NCBI GenBank assembly: GCA_016786615.1
Contig: JAEUVX010000004.1
Location: 279,532 to 343,531 of the forward strand
Origin: Flavipsychrobacter sp.
Lineage (GTDB): Bacteria > Bacteroidota > Bacteroidia > Chitinophagales > Chitinophagaceae
Length of the DNA: 64,000 nucleotides
Direction of reading: 5' to 3'
Program-made: the position numbers and the translations under genes
Shown here: positions 16,998-27,627 of the stretch, in pieces
How the letters are laid out: each line of letters starts with the position of its first letter
Position numbering within the stretch: position 1 is the stretch's first letter
Notes under the pieces: generated by a model
What the model was told of the DNA's origin: nothing
Seen by the model: only the letters and a program-made list of their open reading frames with translations
Database searches by the model: none

Positions 16998-18056
16998 ATG
17001 GCATCGAAAAAAATACAGGAACTGCTGGGCGATCAGGCAGGCTTTTATCTGGACCACACTTGCAAAACCATCGACAAATCTGTACTGCACCTGCCTACAG
17101 GTAGCGTAGTAGATGACGTATGGCAAATGTCTAACCGCAACATCCAGACGCTGAAAAGCATTCAGGCACTGATGGGCAATGGCCGTCTTGCAAACACAGG
17201 TTATGTATCTATCCTTCCTGTAGATCAGGGTATTGAGCATAGCGCCGGTGCGTCTTTCGCTCCGAACCCTATTTATTTCGATCCTGAAAATATTGTGAAG
17301 CTGGCTATGGAAGGTGGTTGCAACGCGGTTGCATCTACTTATGGCGTACTGGGTTCTGTTGCTCGCAAATATGCTCACAAAATACCTTTCATTGTAAAAA
17401 TCAACCACAACGAGTTCATCTCTTACCCTAACAAGTTCGATCAGATCATGTTCGGCACTATTAAAGATGCGTGGAACATGGGTGCAACAGCAGTAGGTGC
17501 TACTATCTATTTTGGTAGCGACGAAAGCGCTCGCCAGATTGTAGAAGTTGCTAAAGCATTTGAATATGCGCACGAACTGGGTATGGCTACTGTATTGTGG
17601 TGCTACCTGCGCAACAGCGGTTTCAAGAAAGATGGCGTTGACTACCATACTGCTGCCGACCTTACAGCACAGGCAAACCACCTGGGCGTAACAATACAGG
17701 CAGATATCATTAAACAAAAATTACCTGCAGGCAATGGCGGTTACAACGCGCTGGCTTTCGGTAAAACACATAAGAAAGTTTACGAAAACCTGACTACAGA
17801 CCATCCGATAGACCTGTGCCGTTATCAGGTAGCTAACTGCTACATGGGCCGTGCCGGTTTGATAAACTCTGGTGGTGAGTCTAAAGGTGCATCTGATATG
17901 GCAGAAGCTGTAATGACTGCCGTTGTTAACAAGCGTGCAGGTGGTATGGGCCTTATCAGTGGCCGTAAAGCATTCCAGAAACCAATGAACGAAGGTGTGG
18001 AATTGCTGAATACTATTCAGGATGTTTACCTGGATAAAGACATCACAATCGCATAG
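16998..18056 (+). CDS. fbaB: class I fructose-bisphosphate aldolase (DhnA/FbaB type)
   Basis: The 352-residue enzyme cleaves fructose-1,6-bisphosphate to dihydroxyacetone phosphate and glyceraldehyde-3-phosphate, or runs in reverse in gluconeogenesis. It belongs to the archaeal-type class I family: [12 protein letters not shown] near residue 75, [11 protein letters not shown] near 130, and [12 protein letters not shown] near 232, which contains the expected Schiff-base Lys. The C-terminal phosphate-binding loop includes [10 protein letters not shown] and [12 protein letters not shown]. It is preceded by a -7 box and followed by a strong hairpin. Confidence 0.92.
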
Positions 18057-18159: not shown

Positions 18160-18209
18160 TTTAATGTATCTTTAAGGTGATTTTAACCTTATATTGAAGC
18201 ATTTTTAAT
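18160..18209 (+). promoter_or_regulatory. 11-bp-phased TTTAA(T/G/C) array upstream of FN3/T9SS gene 1
   Basis: TTTAAT at 18160, TTTAAG at 18171, TTTAAC at 18182, ATTGAA (degenerate) at 18193 and TTTAAT at 18204 are spaced exactly 11 bp apart. The last box ends only 12 bp before the ATG at 18222, closer than in the other arrays. Either the transcription start lies inside the array or the last box is fortuitous. Confidence 0.5.
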
Positions 18210-18221
18210 GTAGTCATAATT

Positions 18222-20009
18222 ATGAAACATCTCTACAAACTCAAATTTTTGTTGCCTGTACTGATGCTGTTTGCAATCAGTGCAAAAGCACAACTACCGG
18301 CGTGTTCTACATACGTATTCACGACGTCTAGTGAAACGTTTACATATTTATCAGGAGGTACTTCGGCATCTAGTATACTTTGCGATGATTGTATTCAGAC
18401 AAATATCCCAATGAACTTCACATTTCCGTTTTGTGGTAACAACTACAATACAATTAGCGTTGGTTCAAACGGTTACATATCGTTGTCAAACAGTGCTAAC
18501 GTATGGTTGGGAGTTTCTACATCAGCTATTACCAGTACACAACCTGTGCTTTTCGGTATGTGGGGCGATGAGTGGGGAAGTGCTGGTGCTGCATCATATT
18601 TGACAACGGGTAGCGCCCCTAACCGTGTATTTACTTTCGAATGGCGTAACTGGCGCCCATACGCAAATACAGCAAATCCTGAATATTCTATGCAAATGAG
18701 GTTATATGAAACTTCTGGCAGGATACAATTCTTATATAAAAGGGAAGGTACTACTACCCGCACATCTACTTATGGCATTGGTATTGCATGGTCTGCTGCG
18801 GACTACCAGTCTCTGCAAACAAATACTGCTACACCTGCTATATCAAACACATCGTTATTTACTTATTCCGGGTATCCACCTAACAATCAGGTATATCAAT
18901 GGGATCCGCCAACACCATGTACCAAGGCAAGTGCGTTAACAATGGGTAATTACAACTCACAAGCAGCATCATTCAGTTGGACAGGCGTTCCCGGTTCGTT
19001 AGATTATCAATATGCCGTAGATACGAGGGCAGATTTGAGCCCTAATCTTACTACGACAATTACTAATACTACAGTGACAAGTGGCACTGCAATAGGTCTG
19101 ACACCCAATACAAGGTATTATATTCACGTTCGTACACGTTGTTCACTCACGAGTATTTCACAGTGGGACACGCTATCTTTTGTAACGCTGCCTCAATGTT
19201 CTCGTCCTGATACGTTGATAGTAGGCTATGTAGATTCTAATAGTGTGAATTTCCAGTGGTCGCCTGTTATCACTGCCTTGTCTTATGACTATATATTCAG
19301 CAGTACAAAGATAGTGCCTACAAAAGCAATGGCTACAAACATATCAAGCCCGGTAGTAGCAAAAGCAAGCCTTACAGAGGGTACATGGTATTATGTTTAC
19401 TACAGGTCGTTGTGTACTAATGCAGATAGTTCAGGCTGGATGTTAGATTCTATCTATACACCGGTGCCATGCCGTGCACCACAGCTTAGCATGAATATGC
19501 TTGTCAGTAACAATGCAATTGTTACATGGAGCCCTGTGAATACTGCATATCAATATGAATATTTTGTTGGCACATCAGCTACAGAACCTACATTAGGTAC
19601 ACCACATAAGTTCACAAGCCTGCAACTGCCATACCTTGTGCCAAAATCTACTTATGACCTGTTTGTAAGATGTAATTGTAGTGATAATGGTATTAAAACA
19701 AATTCTAAGTGGGCATTGCTTGAGTTTGCAACACCTCCGCCAACAGCTATTAACAGTATATATATGAATGCTGTAAATCTCAGCGTTTATCCTAATCCTG
19801 CACACGATGTGTTGTATATAGAGTTGAGTGGTAAATATTCTTCTAAAGCATCAATCTATATTACTGATGTTGCAGGAAGGGTGATACAGACAGTTGATGT
19901 TTCTGCTGACAAATTCTCTGTTGATGTGAGCCGTCTTGCAAAAGGTGTTTACTTCCTGAAGTTTATGGATGGTGAGCATACAAAGACAACACGTTTTAAT
20001 AAGCTCTAA
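18222..20009 (+). CDS. T9SS-exported fibronectin-III-like surface protein 1
   Basis: The 595-residue protein has a signal peptide (1-24, ending SAKAQ). Its N-terminal domain (about 25-230) has paired cysteines (LCDDC, FPFCGNNY), a VGSNGYISLSN turn and FEWRNWR. Three fibronectin-III-like modules follow (about 232-325, 328-418, 420-510), each ending with a Cys and an aromatic strand such as VRTRCS...SQWDTLSFVTLP. A T9SS type-A sorting domain (about 520-595, VYPNPAHDVLYIELSG ... LAKGVYFLKFMDG) closes it. It is probably a surface-anchored or released adhesin-like protein; no enzyme motif is visible. It is closely related to the next gene over the whole length and has its own terminator. Confidence 0.85.
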   Translation: MKHLYKLKFLLPVLMLFAISAKAQLPACSTYVFTTSSETFTYLSGGTSASSILCDDCIQTNIPMNFTFPFCGNNYNTISVGSNGYISLSNSANVWLGVSTSAITSTQPVLFGMWGDEWGSAGAASYLTTGSAPNRVFTFEWRNWRPYANTANPEYSMQMRLYETSGRIQFLYKREGTTTRTSTYGIGIAWSAADYQSLQTNTATPAISNTSLFTYSGYPPNNQVYQWDPPTPCTKASALTMGNYNSQAASFSWTGVPGSLDYQYAVDTRADLSPNLTTTITNTTVTSGTAIGLTPNTRYYIHVRTRCSLTSISQWDTLSFVTLPQCSRPDTLIVGYVDSNSVNFQWSPVITALSYDYIFSSTKIVPTKAMATNISSPVVAKASLTEGTWYYVYYRSLCTNADSSGWMLDSIYTPVPCRAPQLSMNMLVSNNAIVTWSPVNTAYQYEYFVGTSATEPTLGTPHKFTSLQLPYLVPKSTYDLFVRCNCSDNGIKTNSKWALLEFATPPPTAINSIYMNAVNLSVYPNPAHDVLYIELSGKYSSKASIYITDVAGRVIQTVDVSADKFSVDVSRLAKGVYFLKFMDGEHTKTTRFNKL

Positions 20010-20031
20010 TTAATAATTGATATTATAAGAC

Positions 20032-20061
20032 AAAGCCTGCAGATACCTGCAGGCTTTTCTC
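20032..20061 (+). terminator. terminator of FN3/T9SS gene 1
   Basis: A perfect 11-bp stem, AAAGCCTGCAG (20032-20042) with CTGCAGGCTTT (20047-20057), has a 4-base loop and is followed by T residues. Confidence 0.9.
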
Positions 20062-20121
20062 ATTTATACATAGTTTTTTTTAAAAAGTTTAATAATTCTG
20101 TTTGTCAGTGCATTATGTTTT

Positions 20122-20193
20122 TTTAATGTGTTTATAATTCCGCTTTAATCGTAGGTTAAGTGTATTTTAACTACCACATAATTGCATTTTAAT
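20122..20193 (+). promoter_or_regulatory. seven-position 11-bp-phased TTTAAT array upstream of FN3/T9SS gene 2
   Basis: Boxes start at 20122 (TTTAAT), 20133 (TATAAT), 20144 (TTTAAT), 20155 (GTTAAG), 20166 (TTTAAC), 20177 (CATAAT) and 20188 (TTTAAT), every one exactly 11 bp from the next. Five keep the TTAA core and two have ATAA. TTGACC follows directly after the last box. This is the longest and most regular array in the window; the start codon is 65-71 bp downstream. Confidence 0.62.
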
Positions 20194-20257
20194 TGACCTG
20201 AATAGTGCTTGGGGCAAGGCTTCCATAATTTTACAATTATAGATAACAGGTAAAATT

Positions 20258-22075
20258 ATGTTTATGAAGTATATATGTAATGCCATTAAATCCGCTTTAC
20301 TTTTCATATTGTTGATGGGTATTGCTAATAATGTTCAGGCTCAGATACCGGCATGTTCTACCTATGTTTTTACAACATCCTCCGAGCCATTCACCTATCT
20401 TACCGGAGCCAGTTCAGCATCTACAATTCATTGCGATGACTGTACCATGCGGTTTATATCAGTTGGGTTTAGTTTCCCTTTTTGTGGTAATAATTACTCG
20501 TCAGTGAGTGCGTGTTCCAATGGGTTTTTATCACTTTCAAATTCATCCAGCGCATCGTTATCAAATTTATTATCAGGTGTTAACAGTATAGCTCCTATTC
20601 TGCAGGTAATGTGGGATGATATGTATGGAGCGATTGGTTCAACAGCCAGTTATAAAACACAAGGCACAAGCCCAAACAGGGTGTTTATATTTGAATGGAA
20701 AAACTGGCGTACATATGCCAATCGTAATACCGGAGCAGCAATATCTATCCAGTTGAAGTTGTATGAAACATCGGGCAGAATTCAAATGCACTATAAAAGA
20801 GAAGCATCTGCATCATCATACAATCCCAGTAGTGCATCTATAGGTATTGCATACAGTAATGCCGATTACCAATCATTACCTAATGCTGGTGTCAGCCCGG
20901 TTCCTTCTTCAACTACATTCACAACCGGCATCAACGCATGGCCTGCTACCAATCAGATTTATCAATGGGATCCTCCAACGCCTTGTACCAAATCAAGTGC
21001 ATTTACTATGGGCAATTACAACTCACAGGCTGCATCATTCAGTTGGACAGGTGTACCGGGGGCATTGGATTATCAATATGCGGTAGATACAAGGGCCGAC
21101 CTGAGTCCTAATCTTACAACACCCATTACAAATACAACAGTAACCAGCGGTAGCGTTACAGGCCTCACGCCTAATACACGGTATTATCTTCATGTGCGTA
21201 CCCGTTGTTCTCTTACAAGCATTTCTCAATGGGATACGTTGTCTTTTATTACGCTACCCGCATGTTCACGCCCGGATACTTTGATTGTCGGTTATATTGA
21301 TTCAAATTCTGTAAGTTTTCAATGGACTCCTGTTACAACCGCATTGTCTTATGATTATATAGTTTCTCAAACGAAACTCACCCCGATTAAAGCGCTTGCA
21401 ACTAATATTATCTCGCCGACAGTAGCACTTAATAATCTTACAGAAGGTACTGTATATTATGTTTATTACCGCTCTTTATGTACAAATGCGGATAGTTCTG
21501 CATGGATGTTAGATTCTTTCCGTACTCCGGTGCCATGCCGTGCACCTGAGCTTTCATTGTCGATGCTCGCTAATAACAACGCTGTGGTATCCTGGAAATT
21601 AGTTAATACTGCATATCAATACGAGTATTATTTAGGTAAAGAACCCACACCACCAGCTCTCGGTACACCAATAAAAACAAATAGTGTGCAAACGCCTTAT
21701 CTGGTACCCAGTACGATGTATGATTTGTTTGTGAGATGTAATTGCAATGACCACGGTATCCTTACTAATTCCAAATGGTCGATGCTGGAGTTTGTAACAT
21801 TGCCACCTACAAGTATTTCCGGTGTCAGTCTGAATACGGTATTTATAAGTGCATATCCCAACCCCGCTACTGAAACTTTGAATATTGCCATATCCGGTCA
21901 GTATTCTTCAGATGCAATGTTATTCATTACAGATATTGCAGGTAAGCAATTGCAAGTCGTGAATGTGCTTTCGGGTAAAACATCAATAGACATCAGTAAG
22001 CTGACACCTGGTGTATATCTGTTGAAATATGCAGATGGTGCTAATTCAAAAGTATTGCGATTCAACAAGATGTAA
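20258..22075 (+). CDS. T9SS-exported fibronectin-III-like surface protein 2
   Basis: The 605-residue protein has the same architecture as its upstream neighbour: signal peptide ending NVQAQ, a Cys-paired N-terminal domain (IHCDDC, FPFCGNNYSS, FEWKNWR), three fibronectin-III-like modules and a T9SS sorting domain (AYPNPATETLNIAISG ... LTPGVYLLKYADG). An alternative start at 20264 (MKYICN) is equally good for a signal peptide. The first repeat, from PCTKSSAFTMGNYNSQAAS onward, is almost identical to that of protein 1, while the N-terminal domains differ more. It is probably surface-displayed; no catalytic motif is seen. Confidence 0.85.
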   Translation: MFMKYICNAIKSALLFILLMGIANNVQAQIPACSTYVFTTSSEPFTYLTGASSASTIHCDDCTMRFISVGFSFPFCGNNYSSVSACSNGFLSLSNSSSASLSNLLSGVNSIAPILQVMWDDMYGAIGSTASYKTQGTSPNRVFIFEWKNWRTYANRNTGAAISIQLKLYETSGRIQMHYKREASASSYNPSSASIGIAYSNADYQSLPNAGVSPVPSSTTFTTGINAWPATNQIYQWDPPTPCTKSSAFTMGNYNSQAASFSWTGVPGALDYQYAVDTRADLSPNLTTPITNTTVTSGSVTGLTPNTRYYLHVRTRCSLTSISQWDTLSFITLPACSRPDTLIVGYIDSNSVSFQWTPVTTALSYDYIVSQTKLTPIKALATNIISPTVALNNLTEGTVYYVYYRSLCTNADSSAWMLDSFRTPVPCRAPELSLSMLANNNAVVSWKLVNTAYQYEYYLGKEPTPPALGTPIKTNSVQTPYLVPSTMYDLFVRCNCNDHGILTNSKWSMLEFVTLPPTSISGVSLNTVFISAYPNPATETLNIAISGQYSSDAMLFITDIAGKQLQVVNVLSGKTSIDISKLTPGVYLLKYADGANSKVLRFNKM

Positions 22076-22094
22076 GTCTGACGTTTAATTCTGA

Positions 22095-22129
22095 AATACA
22101 CTATGCTACATCATGTGGCATAGTGTATT
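22095..22129 (+). terminator. hairpin after FN3/T9SS gene 2
   Basis: A 12-bp perfect stem, AATACACTATGC (22095-22106) with GCATAGTGTATT (22118-22129). The following sequence is only weakly T-rich, so termination efficiency is uncertain. Between here and 22243 the gap is AT-rich without a recognisable gene. Confidence 0.65.
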
Positions 22130-22242
22130 ATATGTTACAAAAAACAAATCCAATTTATTGTTGTTATAATGTTTTTTTGTTTTTCACAAATTACATTCAT
22201 TTATCATCTCAACGCCGTATATATATGCGATTATTCCAGACA

Positions 22243-22303
22243 ATTAAAATCTAATTAAAGTGCGATTAAAGACTGATTAAACAGAGGTTAAACATTGATT
22301 AAA
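22243..22303 (+). promoter_or_regulatory. six-copy 11-bp-phased (G)ATTAAA array upstream of FN3/T9SS gene 3
   Basis: ATTAAA begins at 22243, 22254, 22265, 22276 and 22298 and GTTAAA at 22287: six boxes on an unbroken 11-bp ladder, four of them preceded by G. The motif is the reverse complement of the TTTAATC seen upstream of gene 4. TTGACT follows directly after the last box, as in front of gene 2. The array lies in the 22076-22412 gap, 110 bp from the start at 22413; I see no other feature there apart from the hairpin at 22095. Confidence 0.65.
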
Positions 22304-22412
22304 ATTGACTCTTGGAGAATTTAATGACGTTGTGTTCTCATAATAGTGTTTAAATTGATATTGATTGTATTACCTATTGTTTTTGGTATAAACAAAATAA
22401 CAACTTATAGCA

Positions 22413-24074
22413 ATGAAGAGAAATTTACTATTATTCTTGTTTTTATGTTTTAACTGTGTTACTGCATTTGCGCAGCCTCAACATGTTAGATCGGCAACCA
22501 GTGCAAACAACTCATTCCCATTTAATACTACCAGTAGTAACAGGGTTCAGAATCTCTTTATGGCATCTGACTTTTCACCAGCGTTGCCAATGGGTACAAT
22601 CACTAAAATATATTATAAAAGTGCAACAAGTACAACCAGTACGTTTTCAAACGTTACGATAAGCATCGGCACTACTACATTAACGGCATTTGCAACAGGC
22701 CCATGGAATACAGGCCTTACTACTGTTTTCGGACCTGCTACTTACGCCAATACATTTGTTAGTGGCCAGTGGTTTGAGTTCACTTTAAGCTCTCCTTTCT
22801 TTTATGATGGCACTTCAAACTTTATTGTTGAGGCATCTCAGACAGGTTATACAAGTGGTGTTATCATTCAGCAAGGAAGTGTAGGTGGGAACAGGCGTAT
22901 GTGGGGTAATGTAACAGCTACAACAGCTTCTGCCGGTACAGGTAGTCCTGAGTTTGGTATAGATATTATTCCGGGGTCTCCATGCACAAAAGCAATTTCA
23001 TTACCTACAACAAATATTGCATCCACATCTGCACAGGTAAACTGGAATGCTGTTCCGGGTTCATTTAAATATGAATACATCATTGATACCACAGCACCTG
23101 GAAAGGCATATACAAGTATCGTGTCAACAACTAACACGAATGCATTTGTAACGGGTTTGATACCGGGTAAAACACATTACTTACGTGTTAGGAATTACTG
23201 TAGTGCTATCAGCTACTCTATGTGGGATACTATGCAGTTTGTTACATTGCCTCCGTGCAGCAAGCCAGCAGGTTTTACTGTCAGCAATGTAGATTCCAAC
23301 TCTGCGAATATCCAGTGGGATACTGCAAATAACGTAATATCATGGCAGTGGCTGGTAGATACCAATAGAGCCAATCCATTGTTAAGCAACCCGAATATTC
23401 AGAATACGACGATACGATTCAAAGCTTTAACAGGCCTTGCTGAAGGAAAATGGAACTATGTGCATATACGTGCAAAATGTGTTGCCAATGATAGTTCAAG
23501 TTGGTCGTTAGACTCATTCTATACACCAACTCCATGTCGTAAACCCGCATTGTCACTTTCATTCCTCAATCCATTTACAGCATCTATATCATGGCCTGCA
23601 GTTAAGACAGCCGTTAACTATGAATACTTTATGGGCCCTGTATCGGCCATACCTGCAAATGGTACGCCATTAATCAATCCGTTTATCCTGACACCATATC
23701 TGGTTCCAAGCACCAACTATACAATGAGTGTACGTTGTAATTGTATAGACAATGGAGTTAAACAAACATCGGGCTGGGCATCGTTAGATTTCACATCGGC
23801 ACCACCATTAAGTGTTAGCAATGTATCAGAAACACCATTCAGTATTGCGACATACCCCAATCCTGTAAAAGACAACCTGGTAATCAAGGCTACTGGCAAA
23901 CGCAATGGTGCAGCTACCATTACTATTATGGATGTAAAAGGTAAAGTGATCGAAAAGCTTACGATGGAAACAGACGACCTGACAATTAAAACAAATCATT
24001 ATGCTGCAGGCATCTACATACTGCAGTATGCAGATAATGCTACAAGCAGGGTAACTAAGTTTACCAAGCAGTAG
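22413..24074 (+). CDS. T9SS-exported fibronectin-III-like surface protein 3
   Basis: The 553-residue protein has a signal peptide (about 1-20, ending TAFAQ). Its N-terminal domain (about 21-190) is of a different kind from proteins 1 and 2: NRVQNLFMASDFSPALPMGTI, WFEFTLSSPFFYDGTSNFIV and IQQGSVGGNRRMWG. Three fibronectin-III-like modules follow (from SPCTKAISLP, each with the terminal Cys/Trp pattern), then a T9SS sorting domain (TYPNPVKDNLVIKATG ... YAAGIYILQYADN). The central part is nearly identical to the next gene, but the last 40 residues are not. It is probably a surface adhesin or matrix protein; no enzyme signature is seen. Confidence 0.85.
   Translation: MKRNLLLFLFLCFNCVTAFAQPQHVRSATSANNSFPFNTTSSNRVQNLFMASDFSPALPMGTITKIYYKSATSTTSTFSNVTISIGTTTLTAFATGPWNTGLTTVFGPATYANTFVSGQWFEFTLSSPFFYDGTSNFIVEASQTGYTSGVIIQQGSVGGNRRMWGNVTATTASAGTGSPEFGIDIIPGSPCTKAISLPTTNIASTSAQVNWNAVPGSFKYEYIIDTTAPGKAYTSIVSTTNTNAFVTGLIPGKTHYLRVRNYCSAISYSMWDTMQFVTLPPCSKPAGFTVSNVDSNSANIQWDTANNVISWQWLVDTNRANPLLSNPNIQNTTIRFKALTGLAEGKWNYVHIRAKCVANDSSSWSLDSFYTPTPCRKPALSLSFLNPFTASISWPAVKTAVNYEYFMGPVSAIPANGTPLINPFILTPYLVPSTNYTMSVRCNCIDNGVKQTSGWASLDFTSAPPLSVSNVSETPFSIATYPNPVKDNLVIKATGKRNGAATITIMDVKGKVIEKLTMETDDLTIKTNHYAAGIYILQYADNATSRVTKFTKQ
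23004..23904 (+). repeat. 901-bp segment duplicated in the next gene (copy 1)
   Basis: This stretch of gene 3 aligns without any gap to 24861-25761 of gene 4 (constant offset 1857). By my count only about 16 of roughly 315 encoded residues differ, and most base changes are in third codon positions. Sequence on both sides, including the rest of the same genes, is clearly less similar. Confidence 0.8.
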
Positions 24075-24101
24075 CAGAGCAGAGATGTCATAATTTTTCA
24101 A

Positions 24102-24125
24102 AAAGCCACTTTTTTAAGTGGCTTT
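24102..24125 (+). terminator. terminator of FN3/T9SS gene 3
   Basis: A perfect 10-bp stem, AAAGCCACTT (24102-24111) with AAGTGGCTTT (24116-24125), with a T4 loop. The T run after the stem is weak, but the A run before it could make it act on the other strand as well. Confidence 0.75.
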
Positions 24126-24139
24126 AAGTGTTTATATAA

Positions 24140-24191
24140 TTTTAATCTGTTTTTAATCTTAACATTAATAGGTTTTAATCCAATTTTAAGT
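24140..24191 (+). promoter_or_regulatory. 11-bp-phased TTTTAATC array upstream of FN3/T9SS gene 4
   Basis: TTTTAATC occurs at 24140, 24151 and 24173, and TTTTAAGT at 24184, all in one 11-bp register. The missing middle position (24162) holds ATTAAT displaced by one base. The start codon is 73 bp downstream. The box orientation is opposite to that in front of gene 3. Confidence 0.6.
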
Positions 24192-24263: not shown

Positions 24264-25931
24264 ATGAGTAAAAAATTACTATTGTTGATGTTGCTTATTG
24301 TATCGGTTAATCTGGTACAGGCACAGACTTACATACGCACAGCTACCGGAGCGACAAACGTTTTCCCTTTTGGTAGTTCTACCAATAGGGTACAGTATTT
24401 ATACGAGGCTGCTGACTTTTCGCCGGCAGTGCCAATGGGTACAATTACTAAAGTATATTTTAAAGCGCAGTCAACGTCAACCTCTACTTACTCCAATATG
24501 ACGTTGTTGATAGGTACTACTGCATTGACACCTACTACATGGCCTACGGGGGCAGTGCCTTGGATTACCGGACTTAACTCAGCATTTTTTGCTTCATCCT
24601 ACACTATTCCTGCGGTTACAGGCCAATGGTTTTCATTTACATTAACAACTCCATTCTTTTGGGACGGTACATCAAATATTATTATAGATGTGTACTCAAA
24701 TAGCGCGGGGGGTATATATCTCGATCAAGGTAGTGTTGGTGGCAACAGGCGTTTATGGGGTGTTTCTACCAACACCAATGCTAATGCCGGCGGTACAGGT
24801 AGTGCTGCTCTTGGTTTAGATATCATTCCCGGTTCTCCGTGTACCAAAACATTGGCATTGCCTACAACAAATATTGCATCTACATCTGCGCAGGTAAACT
24901 GGAATGCTGTTCCGGGTTCATTTAAGTATGAATACATCATTGATACTACAGCACCGGGCCAGGCATTTAAACCTATTGTATCTACAACCAATACGAATGC
25001 ATTTGTAACGGGTTTGATACCGGGTAAAACACATTACCTGCGCGTAAGGAATTATTGCAGTGCTATCAGCTATTCTCTGTGGGATACAATGCAGTTTGTT
25101 ACGCTGCCTCCATGCAGCAAACCATCAGGTTTTACTGCAAGCAATATAGACTCCAACTCTGCGAATATTCAGTGGGATACTGCTAATAACGTTATATCAT
25201 GGCAATGGCTGGTAGATACCAATAGAGCCAATCCATTATTAAGCAACCCGAATATTCAGACTACTACTATACGATTCAAAGCTTTAACAGGCCTTTCGGA
25301 AGGGAAATGGAACTATGTGCATATACGTGCAAAATGTGTTGCCAATGATAGTTCAAGCTGGTCGTTAGACTCATTCTATACACCAACTCCATGCCGCAAA
25401 CCGGTATTGTCGCTTTCATTCCTCAATCCATTTACGGCATCTATATCATGGCCTGCGGTTAAGACAGCCGTTAACTATGAATACTTTATGGGCCCTGTAT
25501 CGGCCATACCTGCAAATGGTACGCCATTAATCAATCCGTTTATCCTGACACCATATTTAGTTCCAAGCACCAACTATACAATGAGTGTGCGTTGTAATTG
25601 TGTTGACAATGGAGTTAAACAAACATCGGGCTGGGCATCGTTAGATTTCACATCGGCACCACCATTAAGTGTTGGCAATGTATCAGAAACACCATTCAGT
25701 ATTGCGACGTACCCCAATCCTGTAAAAGACAACCTGATAATCAAGGCTACTGGCAAACGCAGTGGGGTAGCTACTATTACCATTATGGATGTGAAAGGCC
25801 AGGTAGTTAAGCAACTGAAAATGGATACGGAGCAGGCAGATATTGATGTAGCATCATTAGCATCAGGTATATATCTGCTGCAATACGTTGATGCAAATAC
25901 CAATACAAATACAAAATTCACTAAGCAATAA
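24264..25931 (+). CDS. T9SS-exported fibronectin-III-like surface protein 4
   Basis: The 555-residue protein has a signal peptide (about 1-20, ending LVQAQ). Its N-terminal domain is homologous to that of protein 3 but diverged (NRVQYLYEAADFSPAVPMGTI, WFSFTLTTPFFWDGTSNIII, LDQGSVGGNRRLWG). The three fibronectin-III-like modules and the first part of the sorting domain are almost identical to protein 3, while the final 40 residues (QVVKQLKMDTEQADID ... KFTKQ) are different. This mosaic pattern points to duplication followed by gene conversion or selection on the ends. It probably has the same surface role. Confidence 0.85.
   Translation: MSKKLLLLMLLIVSVNLVQAQTYIRTATGATNVFPFGSSTNRVQYLYEAADFSPAVPMGTITKVYFKAQSTSTSTYSNMTLLIGTTALTPTTWPTGAVPWITGLNSAFFASSYTIPAVTGQWFSFTLTTPFFWDGTSNIIIDVYSNSAGGIYLDQGSVGGNRRLWGVSTNTNANAGGTGSAALGLDIIPGSPCTKTLALPTTNIASTSAQVNWNAVPGSFKYEYIIDTTAPGQAFKPIVSTTNTNAFVTGLIPGKTHYLRVRNYCSAISYSLWDTMQFVTLPPCSKPSGFTASNIDSNSANIQWDTANNVISWQWLVDTNRANPLLSNPNIQTTTIRFKALTGLSEGKWNYVHIRAKCVANDSSSWSLDSFYTPTPCRKPVLSLSFLNPFTASISWPAVKTAVNYEYFMGPVSAIPANGTPLINPFILTPYLVPSTNYTMSVRCNCVDNGVKQTSGWASLDFTSAPPLSVGNVSETPFSIATYPNPVKDNLIIKATGKRSGVATITIMDVKGQVVKQLKMDTEQADIDVASLASGIYLLQYVDANTNTNTKFTKQ
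24861..25761 (+). repeat. 901-bp segment duplicated from the previous gene (copy 2)
   Basis: Gap-free counterpart of 23004-23904 (see that entry), encoding the fibronectin-III-like modules and the front of the sorting domain. Confidence 0.8.
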
Positions 25932-26139: not shown

Positions 26140-27627
26140 ATGCTAATAAAACTTTACCCAAACCGTATTAAGACCGCTATTGCAATTGCAGGTTTAATAC
26201 TGACAGCAGGCACTGCTGATGCTCAGGTATATTGTACACCGCAAGCAGCAGTTTCCGGTGCCAATTGTGGCCAGGGGTCTCCGAGCGCAATTCGTATCAA
26301 TAGTGTTACCACTACAGGTGCTGTTACAAACATTGCAAACGCAAACAATACCTGTAATACAGCTACAGGGTACGAAATATACAGTGGCCCGGGCAAAGAG
26401 CTGACGGTTAACGCAGGTACAAGTTTTGGCTATACTATACAGTTGGCAAGTACAGGTACTGCATTCCCTTATAAAGTAGCAATATGGGTTGACTGGAACA
26501 GAGATAGCGTATTTAATACACTGGCTTATCCCGCCAATGCCAATGGTGAGTTTATGGTAGTATCTCCGGGGGCATTTACTTGTTGTACAGTACCATCGGG
26601 TACTATGGGTACAACAATACCTGTGCCACCTACTGCAAAAAATGGCCGTACGCGTATGCGTATCCGCGTGGGTACAAGGAATGGTGTTAACCCGCCATAC
26701 GCACCACCAGTAGGTGAAGACCCTTGTTTCCTGGGTGGTTTCTATTACGGAGAAGTTGAAGATTATTATGTAAACGTAATCAATCCGTGCTCTCCGCCAC
26801 CACAAATCACATATTCAAACCTCACATACAATTCTGCGAACATTAAGTGGAAAAAATGGCCAACTGCTCTGATGTATGAGTATGTAATTACAACTACACC
26901 GGGAACACCTGGTAATGGTAATAATCTTACAAAAGATACATCGTTGAGTTTGCCTGATAGCAACTTCCCGATAGTATGTAATACAAAATACTACTTCTAC
27001 ATACGCAGCATTTGTGATACAGCAGGCCTTAATCAACAAAACTGGGTTGTATCTCCATGGAAGCTGGACTCGTTTGTAGTGCCGCCATGCTGCTATACAC
27101 CACAGATAACAATTGCAAATATTTCGAGTACAACTGCCATTGCAAGCTGGACGCCGGTACCAAGTGTGCAGCGTTATGAGTATGCCGTGCGTATAGATAC
27201 ACAAATACCACAGAGCGGCAATATCACAACACAAACAAGTGTAGTGTTGCAAGGTTTGGCACCGGGTAAAGAATGGTATTTCTTCCTGCGTGCGCATTGT
27301 ACACCAACACCGTTATCTCCTTGGGGGCTCGACTCGTTCCTGACACAACCGGGTACAGGCATCGTAGCTACAGGTAATGTTAAGAACTTTGAAATACAGG
27401 CATTCCCTAACCCGATGAAGGATAAATTTAACCTCCGCGTAGTTGGCGGCATGAAGTCAGGAATAGGTAATATTATCGTTACGGATATTACTGGTAAAGT
27501 AATATCTCAACTGAAAATGGAAAATGACATGATGGATGTTAACCTTGAAGGCAAACCGGCTGGTATGTATTTGCTCAAATACACCGATGATGCCAATAGT
27601 ACCATCATTAAGGTCACGAAAGAATAG
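26140..27627 (+). CDS. T9SS-exported GEVED/fibronectin-III-like surface protein 5
   Basis: The 495-residue protein has a signal peptide (about 1-29, ending GTADAQ). A GEVED-type domain follows (about 30-215): KVAIWVDWNRDSVFN, RMRIRVGTRNGVNPP and YYGEVEDYYVNV, the calcium-site-like pattern frequent in T9SS cargo. Two fibronectin-III-like modules and a sorting domain (AFPNPMKDKFNLRV ... KPAGMYLLKYTDD) complete it. It shares the Cys/Trp repeat style of proteins 1-4 but has a third kind of N-terminus and no phased array in front. No catalytic residues are seen. Confidence 0.85.
   Translation: MLIKLYPNRIKTAIAIAGLILTAGTADAQVYCTPQAAVSGANCGQGSPSAIRINSVTTTGAVTNIANANNTCNTATGYEIYSGPGKELTVNAGTSFGYTIQLASTGTAFPYKVAIWVDWNRDSVFNTLAYPANANGEFMVVSPGAFTCCTVPSGTMGTTIPVPPTAKNGRTRMRIRVGTRNGVNPPYAPPVGEDPCFLGGFYYGEVEDYYVNVINPCSPPPQITYSNLTYNSANIKWKKWPTALMYEYVITTTPGTPGNGNNLTKDTSLSLPDSNFPIVCNTKYYFYIRSICDTAGLNQQNWVVSPWKLDSFVVPPCCYTPQITIANISSTTAIASWTPVPSVQRYEYAVRIDTQIPQSGNITTQTSVVLQGLAPGKEWYFFLRAHCTPTPLSPWGLDSFLTQPGTGIVATGNVKNFEIQAFPNPMKDKFNLRVVGGMKSGIGNIIVTDITGKVISQLKMENDMMDVNLEGKPAGMYLLKYTDDANSTIIKVTKE

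Follow-up and report, generated by a model that had tools for sequence, protein, structure and literature searches.

What are the ladders of short AT-rich boxes that precede four neighbouring surface-protein genes of a Flavipsychrobacter sp., and which protein reads them? The question arises from a stretch of 64,000 nucleotides (GenBank assembly GCA_016786615.1, contig JAEUVX010000004.1, positions 279,532 to 343,531 of the forward strand; C9:279532-343531, hereafter the window), taken from a genome of 2,957,465 bases in 15 contigs that is 91% complete; here, four genes whose products carry fibronectin type III (fn3) domains and the C-terminal sorting domain of the type IX secretion system (T9SS) each follow an array of TTTAAT-like boxes at an 11-bp step. 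The arrays are probably operators, predicted to take up several dimers of an OmpR/PhoB-family regulator; the response regulator RR-047, together with its adjacent kinase, is the most likely candidate, and in relatives the predicted mode of action is probably class II activation. Gene neighbourhood, promoter geometry in relatives and regulator phylogeny support the OmpR-type reading that the initial annotation had put forward; the nearest known half-site is that of the PmrA box, and not of the pho box cited there.

Regarding the arrays themselves, direct reading gives for A1 (18160..18209, plus strand; 5 phases, 4 exact TTAA) the boxes TTTAAT, TTTAAG, TTTAAC, ATTGAA and TTTAAT at 18160 + 11n, with the TTTAA(T/G/C) orientation toward gene 1; A2 (20122..20193, plus strand; 7 phases, 5 exact TTAA) faces gene 2, with TTTAAT, TATAAT, TTTAAT, GTTAAG, TTTAAC, CATAAT and TTTAAT at 20122 + 11n. 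In A3 (22243..22303, minus strand; 6 phases, 6 exact TTAA), four ATTAAA boxes, GTTAAA and a last ATTAAA stand at 22243 + 11n, ATTAAA being TTTAAT on the minus strand, and an in-register TTTAAT of opposite orientation lies at 22320, after one empty phase. No opposite-strand gene adjoins A3 (22243-22303) as a possible recipient. A4 (24141..24190, plus strand; 5 phases, 4 exact TTAA), facing gene 4, consists of TTTAAT, TTTAAT, CATTAA, TTTAAT and TTTAAG; its first base is 24141, and not 24140 as first given. A2, A3 and A4 lie about 65-110 bp upstream of their ATGs. The invariant core of the boxes is TTAA, and exact TTTAAT or its complement occurs in part of them only; of the earlier description of TTTAAT boxes, the 11-bp step and the variable spacers stood, and the hexamer in part. 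The five-base spacers differ from box to box in all four arrays and do not repeat with the unit, as they would in a simple tandem repeat, so that the earlier rejection of a microsatellite holds.

The step is sharply defined. TTAA pairs in the window number 17, 15, 11 and 8 at distances of 11, 22, 33 and 44, with 0-4 at all other distances from 4 to 59; chains of at least three TTAA, one miss allowed, occur at period 11 only among periods 7-15 (n = 5). Direct repeats at a 10-11 bp step, as expected of OmpR/PhoB operators, are what the window arrays present. When each of the four intergenic regions was shuffled 2000 times with dinucleotides preserved and any period of 7-15 permitted, the observed score was matched 0, 0, 0 and 1 times for A1, A2, A3 and A4. 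Direct reading, pair distances and shuffles agree with the initial annotation that each of the four neighbouring T9SS/fn3 genes follows such an array; its first refuting condition, equally regular ladders elsewhere, was examined with other spacings and with shuffled sequence and did not refute it, period 11 standing out. Over the whole genome, the exact three-box pattern was found at 18 places at period 11 (overlaps counted), corresponding to 13 separate arrays, with 1 in the reversed-pattern control; at period 10 there was 1 place (control 0) and at period 12 also 1 (control 2). The single exact three-box period-10 TTAA ladder, L199:8870 (C6:198869), lies about 1 kb after an OmpR-type regulator, L054.

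The arrays are not confined to this genome, and their neighbourhoods point to a regulator. In a sample of the Bacteroidota, the exact four-box array was present in 113/395 genomes and the reversed pattern in 36/395 (controls hand-counted). For 40 listed arrays, the surrounding DNA (at most 12 kb) was compared with 37 control stretches from the same genomes (40 were sought, three did not exist): an OmpR-type regulator, complete and accompanied by a kinase, occurred in 14 of the 40 and in one of the 37 (Fisher p = 3e-4), the single positive control being one long hybrid open reading frame (ORF). The 40 were not chosen blindly, as an earlier look had revealed kinase-like genes at several arrays; the subset picked automatically by the search gave 9/27 against 1/25 controls (p = 0.012). 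This subset derives from 29 automatically picked loci, two of which were excluded (L086, with the array partly in an ORF, and L114, another array of the same genome being used), and 13 loci were added to it. In 13 of the 14 linked loci the array comes last, after the regulator and then the kinase, and it overlaps the kinase 3' end or lies at most about 300 bp from it. Twelve of the 14 linked regulators fall in one clade with L047 (RR-047), L048 and L051 of the genome under study, and its other six OmpR-type regulators fall outside; the two exceptions, from L133 and L135, do not have Asn at position 188. The array-linked regulators that come from the family of the window show 61-69% identity to L047, of which they are orthologues. 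Two further stretches of the phylum sample, L150 and L151 (family f18), contain similar TTTAAG arrays with a -7-like box at +11 (TATCTTTG in L150, TATCTTTT in L151); no OmpR-type regulator or kinase was found in either stretch.

The converse comparison starts from RR-047 (C1:38571-39263, minus strand), one of nine OmpR-type regulators found in the genome, with a receiver and a Trans_reg_C domain and an adjacent HAMP/HisKA/HATPase kinase whose best model is CopS-like. At 40 loci of RR-047 relatives that were not chosen for arrays, 15 had period-11 ladders, and periods 9, 10, 12 and 13 gave 0, 0, 1 and 0; adding three loci chosen for arrays makes 18/43. Ten of the 15 ladders are contiguous (each other period between 7 and 15 gives 0 or 1), and five are gapped or partly inside ORFs. 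A set of 80 RR-047-relative loci from named genomes (Niastella, Sediminibacterium, Flavihumibacter, Flavipsychrobacter, Taibaiella and others; 62-92% identity), whose genomes partly overlap those of the 40, had an array in 30 at period 11, in none at periods 7-10 and 12-14, and in 2 at period 15; requiring four exact boxes left 23 at period 11 and 0 elsewhere. By its relatives in this set, the host itself probably stands close to Flavipsychrobacter/Taibaiella within the Chitinophagaceae. Among 36 arrays inspected at such loci, none lies within an ORF and most have 4 phases. Usually the array follows the kinase directly, ahead of the gene after it, and some loci have another array a gene further along; at L307, L317 and L331 the array is instead 27-155 bp upstream of the regulator gene, and at L305, L306, L308 and in the genomes G477 and G050 it stands a few genes away from the RR-047 relative, upstream of a large secreted-looking protein. 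A domain test of one downstream protein, at L325, identified a universal stress protein; the others, judged on their first residues, look like universal stress proteins, small membrane proteins or glycosyltransferases.

As for its identity, the best NCBIfam model of RR-047 is TIGR01387 (CztR/SilR/CopR), with 246.1 bits, below the cut-off of 279.2; the PmrA model NF007928 scores 163.3 against a cut-off of 330, and RR-047 does not qualify as a PmrA orthologue. Its recognition helix recalls that of PmrA, in which the base-specific contacts come from Asn188 and Asn196 and the hydrophobic contacts from Thr187, Val192 and His195, according to the parts of the report consulted (PMC4660055). In L047, matched to PmrA by spacing, positions 187, 188 and 192 are T, N and V, and positions 195 and 196 are Asn and Phe. 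Read by eye, the T-N-x3-V residues occur in only two of the nine OmpR-type regulators of the genome, L047 and L051, and in 10 of the 14 array-linked regulators, two more of which retain N and V. At L051, the order is response regulator, kinase, TTTAAG-N5-CTTAAG and a TolC-like gene.

The position of the arrays relative to promoters gives a second kind of detail. Arrays were oriented by TTTAA(T/G), and 27 of 114 were dropped as weakly oriented (12 from the genome itself, 1 near, 1 family, 13 phylum; none with a +11 box). YAnnTTTR stands at exactly +11 in 35 of the 87 oriented arrays, against 0.28 expected from mononucleotide-shuffled tails; by group, the counts are 24/36 in the family, 11/28 in the phylum, 0/13 in same-genus or near genomes and 0/10 in the genome itself, and with unoriented arrays included they become 35/114 overall and 35/92 outside it. 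For the base preferences another set, of 87 arrays before orientation, was used, of which 26 were dropped as weakly oriented; in the remaining 61, TTAA is preceded by T (0.75) or C (0.07) and followed by T or G (0.84), which is the YTTAAK half-site of the PmrA box with its 5-bp gap, and TTTG lies exactly 15 bases 3' of the last TTAA in 21/61 (18/34 in the named-genome set). The sigma-A -7 box of Flavobacterium is reported as TAnnTTTG at -12 to -5 (PMC9723704, in the parts consulted); if the +11 box is this element, the last array box falls at about -28 to -23, where, by analogy, a class II activator of the OmpR/PhoB type would take the place of the upstream promoter element. That arrays in relatives end 11 bp before a promoter box suggests activation. 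Same-genus and near arrays have a box at +22, +23 or +33 in 7/13 cases, and in the window a candidate -7 box, TAATTTTA (20226..20233, plus strand), proposed on the model of the TAnnTTTG-type boxes, lies exactly 33 bp (3 x 11) past the last TTAA of A2. The tails after two arrays of the same-genus genome G477 (L279:10916 and L279:12702) share CTGTCTAT[G/A]TA[A/G]AATAG[T/C]TTTAA, a possible lineage-specific promoter.

From the arrays, their statistics, their co-location with one regulator clade and the promoter geometry of the relatives, a mechanism can be inferred for binding, for RR-047 as regulator of the window genes and for activation. Each TTTAA(T/G) half-site would take up one winged-helix DNA-binding domain, and the 11-bp step would set successive domains head-to-tail on one helix face, by analogy with PmrA, PhoB and ArcA. 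The most likely binder would be RR-047, CopR/CusR-like and with the T-N-x3-V recognition helix of PmrA, under its adjacent histidine kinase; once phosphorylated, the regulator would probably act as a class II activator in many relatives, where the array ends 11 bp before the -7 box, at the -33 element. Its targets would include T9SS surface proteins in this lineage and, among the kinase-adjacent ones of Niastella-like relatives, universal-stress-type proteins.

The window genes themselves are gene 1 (18222..20009), gene 2 (20258..22075; 65% identical to gene 1), gene 3 (22413..24074) and gene 4 (24264..25931), all on the plus strand and encoding fn3 and Por_Secre_tail (T9SS sorting) domains; a fifth gene of the row, gene 5 (26140..27627, plus strand; GEVED, fn3 and Por_Secre_tail), has no array upstream of 26140 and serves as an internal negative. 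A DeoC/LacD-type aldolase gene (16998..18056, plus strand) precedes them and marks the synteny, since aldolases 90% (G477) and 89% (G050) identical precede T9SS/fn3 genes in other genomes. In G477 the aldolase is followed by nine genes, six of which were tested and all six have fn3 and T9SS domains, and arrays stand upstream of 4/9. In G050, from another genus, no array was found upstream of the fn3 gene itself; one stands upstream of the gene after it and ends 11 bp before the ATG. For 13 further relatives, 24 of 30 loci were used (five with the upstream region cut and one duplicate were dropped): contiguous arrays precede 3/24 genes at period 11 and one at period 12, and the average score with a position weight matrix (PWM) is highest at period 11 (9.2 against 4.2-6.0), with 1/24 passing the higher threshold at period 11 and 1 at period 9. 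In five relatives of genes 3 and 4 (L385, L393, L396, L402 and L403) the best boxes are inverted as in A3, unlike those of window gene 4; this recurrence is suggestive only.

A number of observations weigh against the proposed mechanism. Conservation before orthologues, which the initial annotation had offered as a check, is patchy: of 13 genes examined in G477, only 4 exceed the higher PWM threshold with period 11 and none with other periods, and in the 13 further relatives, with one gap allowed, only 4/24 genes have an array (periods 9, 10 and 12 giving 1 each). The genome-wide scan yielded 13 exact three-box arrays, of which just 5 precede a gene with a demonstrated T9SS domain: A1, A2, A3, C6:231286 (a gene of 1287 aa with GEVED/Ig and T9SS domains) and C6:664917 (996 aa, M36-peptidase-like, with a T9SS domain). 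The remaining ones lie near arylsulfotransferase-like, DUF1573 and DUF47 genes and genes of other kinds; no T9SS domain was found in the arylsulfotransferase-like gene near the array at C14:92198. On the regulator side, no array was found beside the genome's own RR-047 within the 20 kb examined, L051 and L048 are also possible binders, 5/14 kinase-linked arrays come from one genus, and related genomes in the sample make the counts non-independent. Finally, the promoter geometry of the relatives is not that of the window: the +11 box is seen in 0/22 arrays of the genome itself and 0/14 of same-genus or near genomes, only A2 among the window arrays has an in-phase box (+33), with none for A1, A3 and A4, and A3 is inverted relative to gene 3. 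In A1, 13 bp separate the end of the last TTAA from the gene 1 ATG, which, like the 11 bp of the G050 array, is too close for an activator positioned as in the relatives.

These distances speak for repression, by which the operators would belong to the OmpR family and the regulator would repress, or do both, at the window genes, an array over the start region blocking RNA polymerase. The lack of a +11 promoter box at the genome's own arrays agrees with this, and the number of ArcA repeats has been discussed as modulating repression (PMC3798270, in the parts consulted); yet the fixed +11 distance to the -7 box in 35/87 oriented arrays argues the other way, as do A2-A4, whose 65-110 bp to the ATG leave room for a promoter, and repression at these genes is accordingly rated as unlikely, without being far-fetched. 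A similar, rather low probability attaches to another binder, be it L048, L051, the PhoB-like L049 or an unrelated cooperative protein, with the linkage to RR-047 reflecting just family resemblance. L051 has both its own TTTAAG-N5-CTTAAG site and the T-N-x3-V signature, weaker TTAA ladders occur upstream of two DUF47 genes, one of which is accompanied by a Pit-type phosphate transporter, and RR-047 has no neighbouring array in its own genome; what favours RR-047 over these is that TTTAAT arrays co-locate with its relatives, at 30/80 loci and at 10-15 of the 40.

Two explanations would dispense with a specific regulator. Boxes that are AT-rich and phased close to the helical repeat could bend the promoter as curved DNA or bind a nucleoid protein, and this is very improbable given a step of exactly 11 that does not drift to 10 (18 against 1 places), a TTAA core with preferred flanking T and T/G instead of A-tracts, the fixed -7 distance in relatives and the linkage to one regulator clade. 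Least credible, to the point of being negligible, is chance or a decayed microsatellite or tandem duplication: the intergenic DNA is AT-rich and one of 2000 shuffles did reach the A4 score, but the other three regions gave none, the spacers differ among boxes, and the same step recurs across the phylum against the reversed-pattern control.

If the preferred reading, multi-dimer operators read by RR-047 and its kinase, is extended, a more speculative proposal can be made, tentative in itself: the arrays might form a phase-locked operator code in Bacteroidota, in which 2-7 TTTAAT half-sites are placed at whole 11-bp turns from the -7 box (+11, +22/23, +33), one CopR-like two-component system grades the expression of numerous surface and stress genes, and boxes gained or lost between paralogues and species rewire the display of T9SS surface proteins.

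Besides the TTTAAT arrays, a second period-11 sub-type is present, roughly gTTAACcGcTTGTaAA-N6-TTAAC (TGTWAA-like), to which the fifth chain of the window, at 1724-1760 ahead of the gene at 1871-2416, belongs. It stands upstream of several secreted paralogues of about 180 aa (QNASSTATQTVNLNLSNAIE...YTVDVVYTATQ), in the window and at L040, L042 (two), L043 and L044; TTAAC-like ladders also precede other genes (L035, L041, L045), and G477 and G050 contain similar sequences. Possibly, this sub-type answers to a different OmpR-type regulator. TTAA ladders are found as well upstream of two DUF47 (PhoU_div) genes, at L046 (C14:115390) and L039 (C15:917), one of them followed by a PHO4/Pit phosphate transporter. 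A Pho regulon was considered and rejected: the DUF47 ladders are weak (one steps by 10, 12 and 11), the PhoU family PF01895 had no match in the genome (Pst was not searched), and L049, the PhoB-like regulator, is not the one closest to the array-linked regulators of relatives. The units are TTTAAT-like, and neither the CTGTCAT- nor GTTCACC-like units of pho-type boxes (PMC4415409, in the parts consulted) nor the accompanying PhoU genes characterize these arrays.

To our knowledge, little is known about how individual T9SS surface proteins are switched. The arrays supply a readable predicted operator and point to a regulator and kinase as candidates; with these and the promoter geometry, which is found repeatedly in Bacteroidota, regulons could be predicted from sequence in organisms without genetics; furthermore, arrays of different length before paralogous genes are a natural series on how repeat number relates to the response of an OmpR-family operator.

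Among known systems, seen here through the accessible parts of the cited reports, the closest is the PmrA/BasR box, TTTAAG-N5-TTTAAG in Acinetobacter and a YTTAAK direct repeat in Salmonella (PMC10927774, PMC3973317), which shares with the arrays the half-site core, the 5-bp gap, the 11-bp step, the direct repeats, the OmpR/PhoB-type regulator and the T-N-x3-V residues; it has two half-sites, and the arrays here have 3-7 (5, 7, 6 and 5 phases in the window). The sites of E. coli ArcA (PMC3798270) consist of two to five direct-repeat elements, mostly 11 bp centre-to-centre, whose number and strength differ among targets as in these arrays; phylum and regulator are different, the arrays here reach up to 7 phases, and many of those in relatives end at a constant 11-bp distance from the -7 box. 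In Streptomyces, PhoP also uses operators of several 11-nt units, such as the four core and two ancillary units of pitH2 (PMC7866108, PMC4415409), and differs in its GTTCACC-like units and phosphate regulon. Within the Bacteroidota, the PhoP-type response regulator of Riemerella anatipestifer (PMC9603813) has a motif from DNA affinity purification sequencing with TTTAACA most conserved, closer to the TTAAC sub-type than to TTTAAT, and the accessible text mentions no arrays, step or -7 geometry; Porphyromonas PorX/PorY-SigP (PMC8050853, PMC8265659) ties two-component control to type IX secretion, yet it concerns the secretion-machinery genes and no connection to the arrays is seen. A literature search found no report of such arrays, a weak negative, as most subscription papers were outside its reach. 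For the TTAACA box of Bacillus PhoP a search gave no hit, and this comparison is the initial annotation's own. In conclusion, multi-repeat sites of OmpR/PhoB proteins were already known from ArcA and Streptomyces PhoP, and the phylum, the unit, the promoter phase and the regulon are what is apparently new in the arrays described here.

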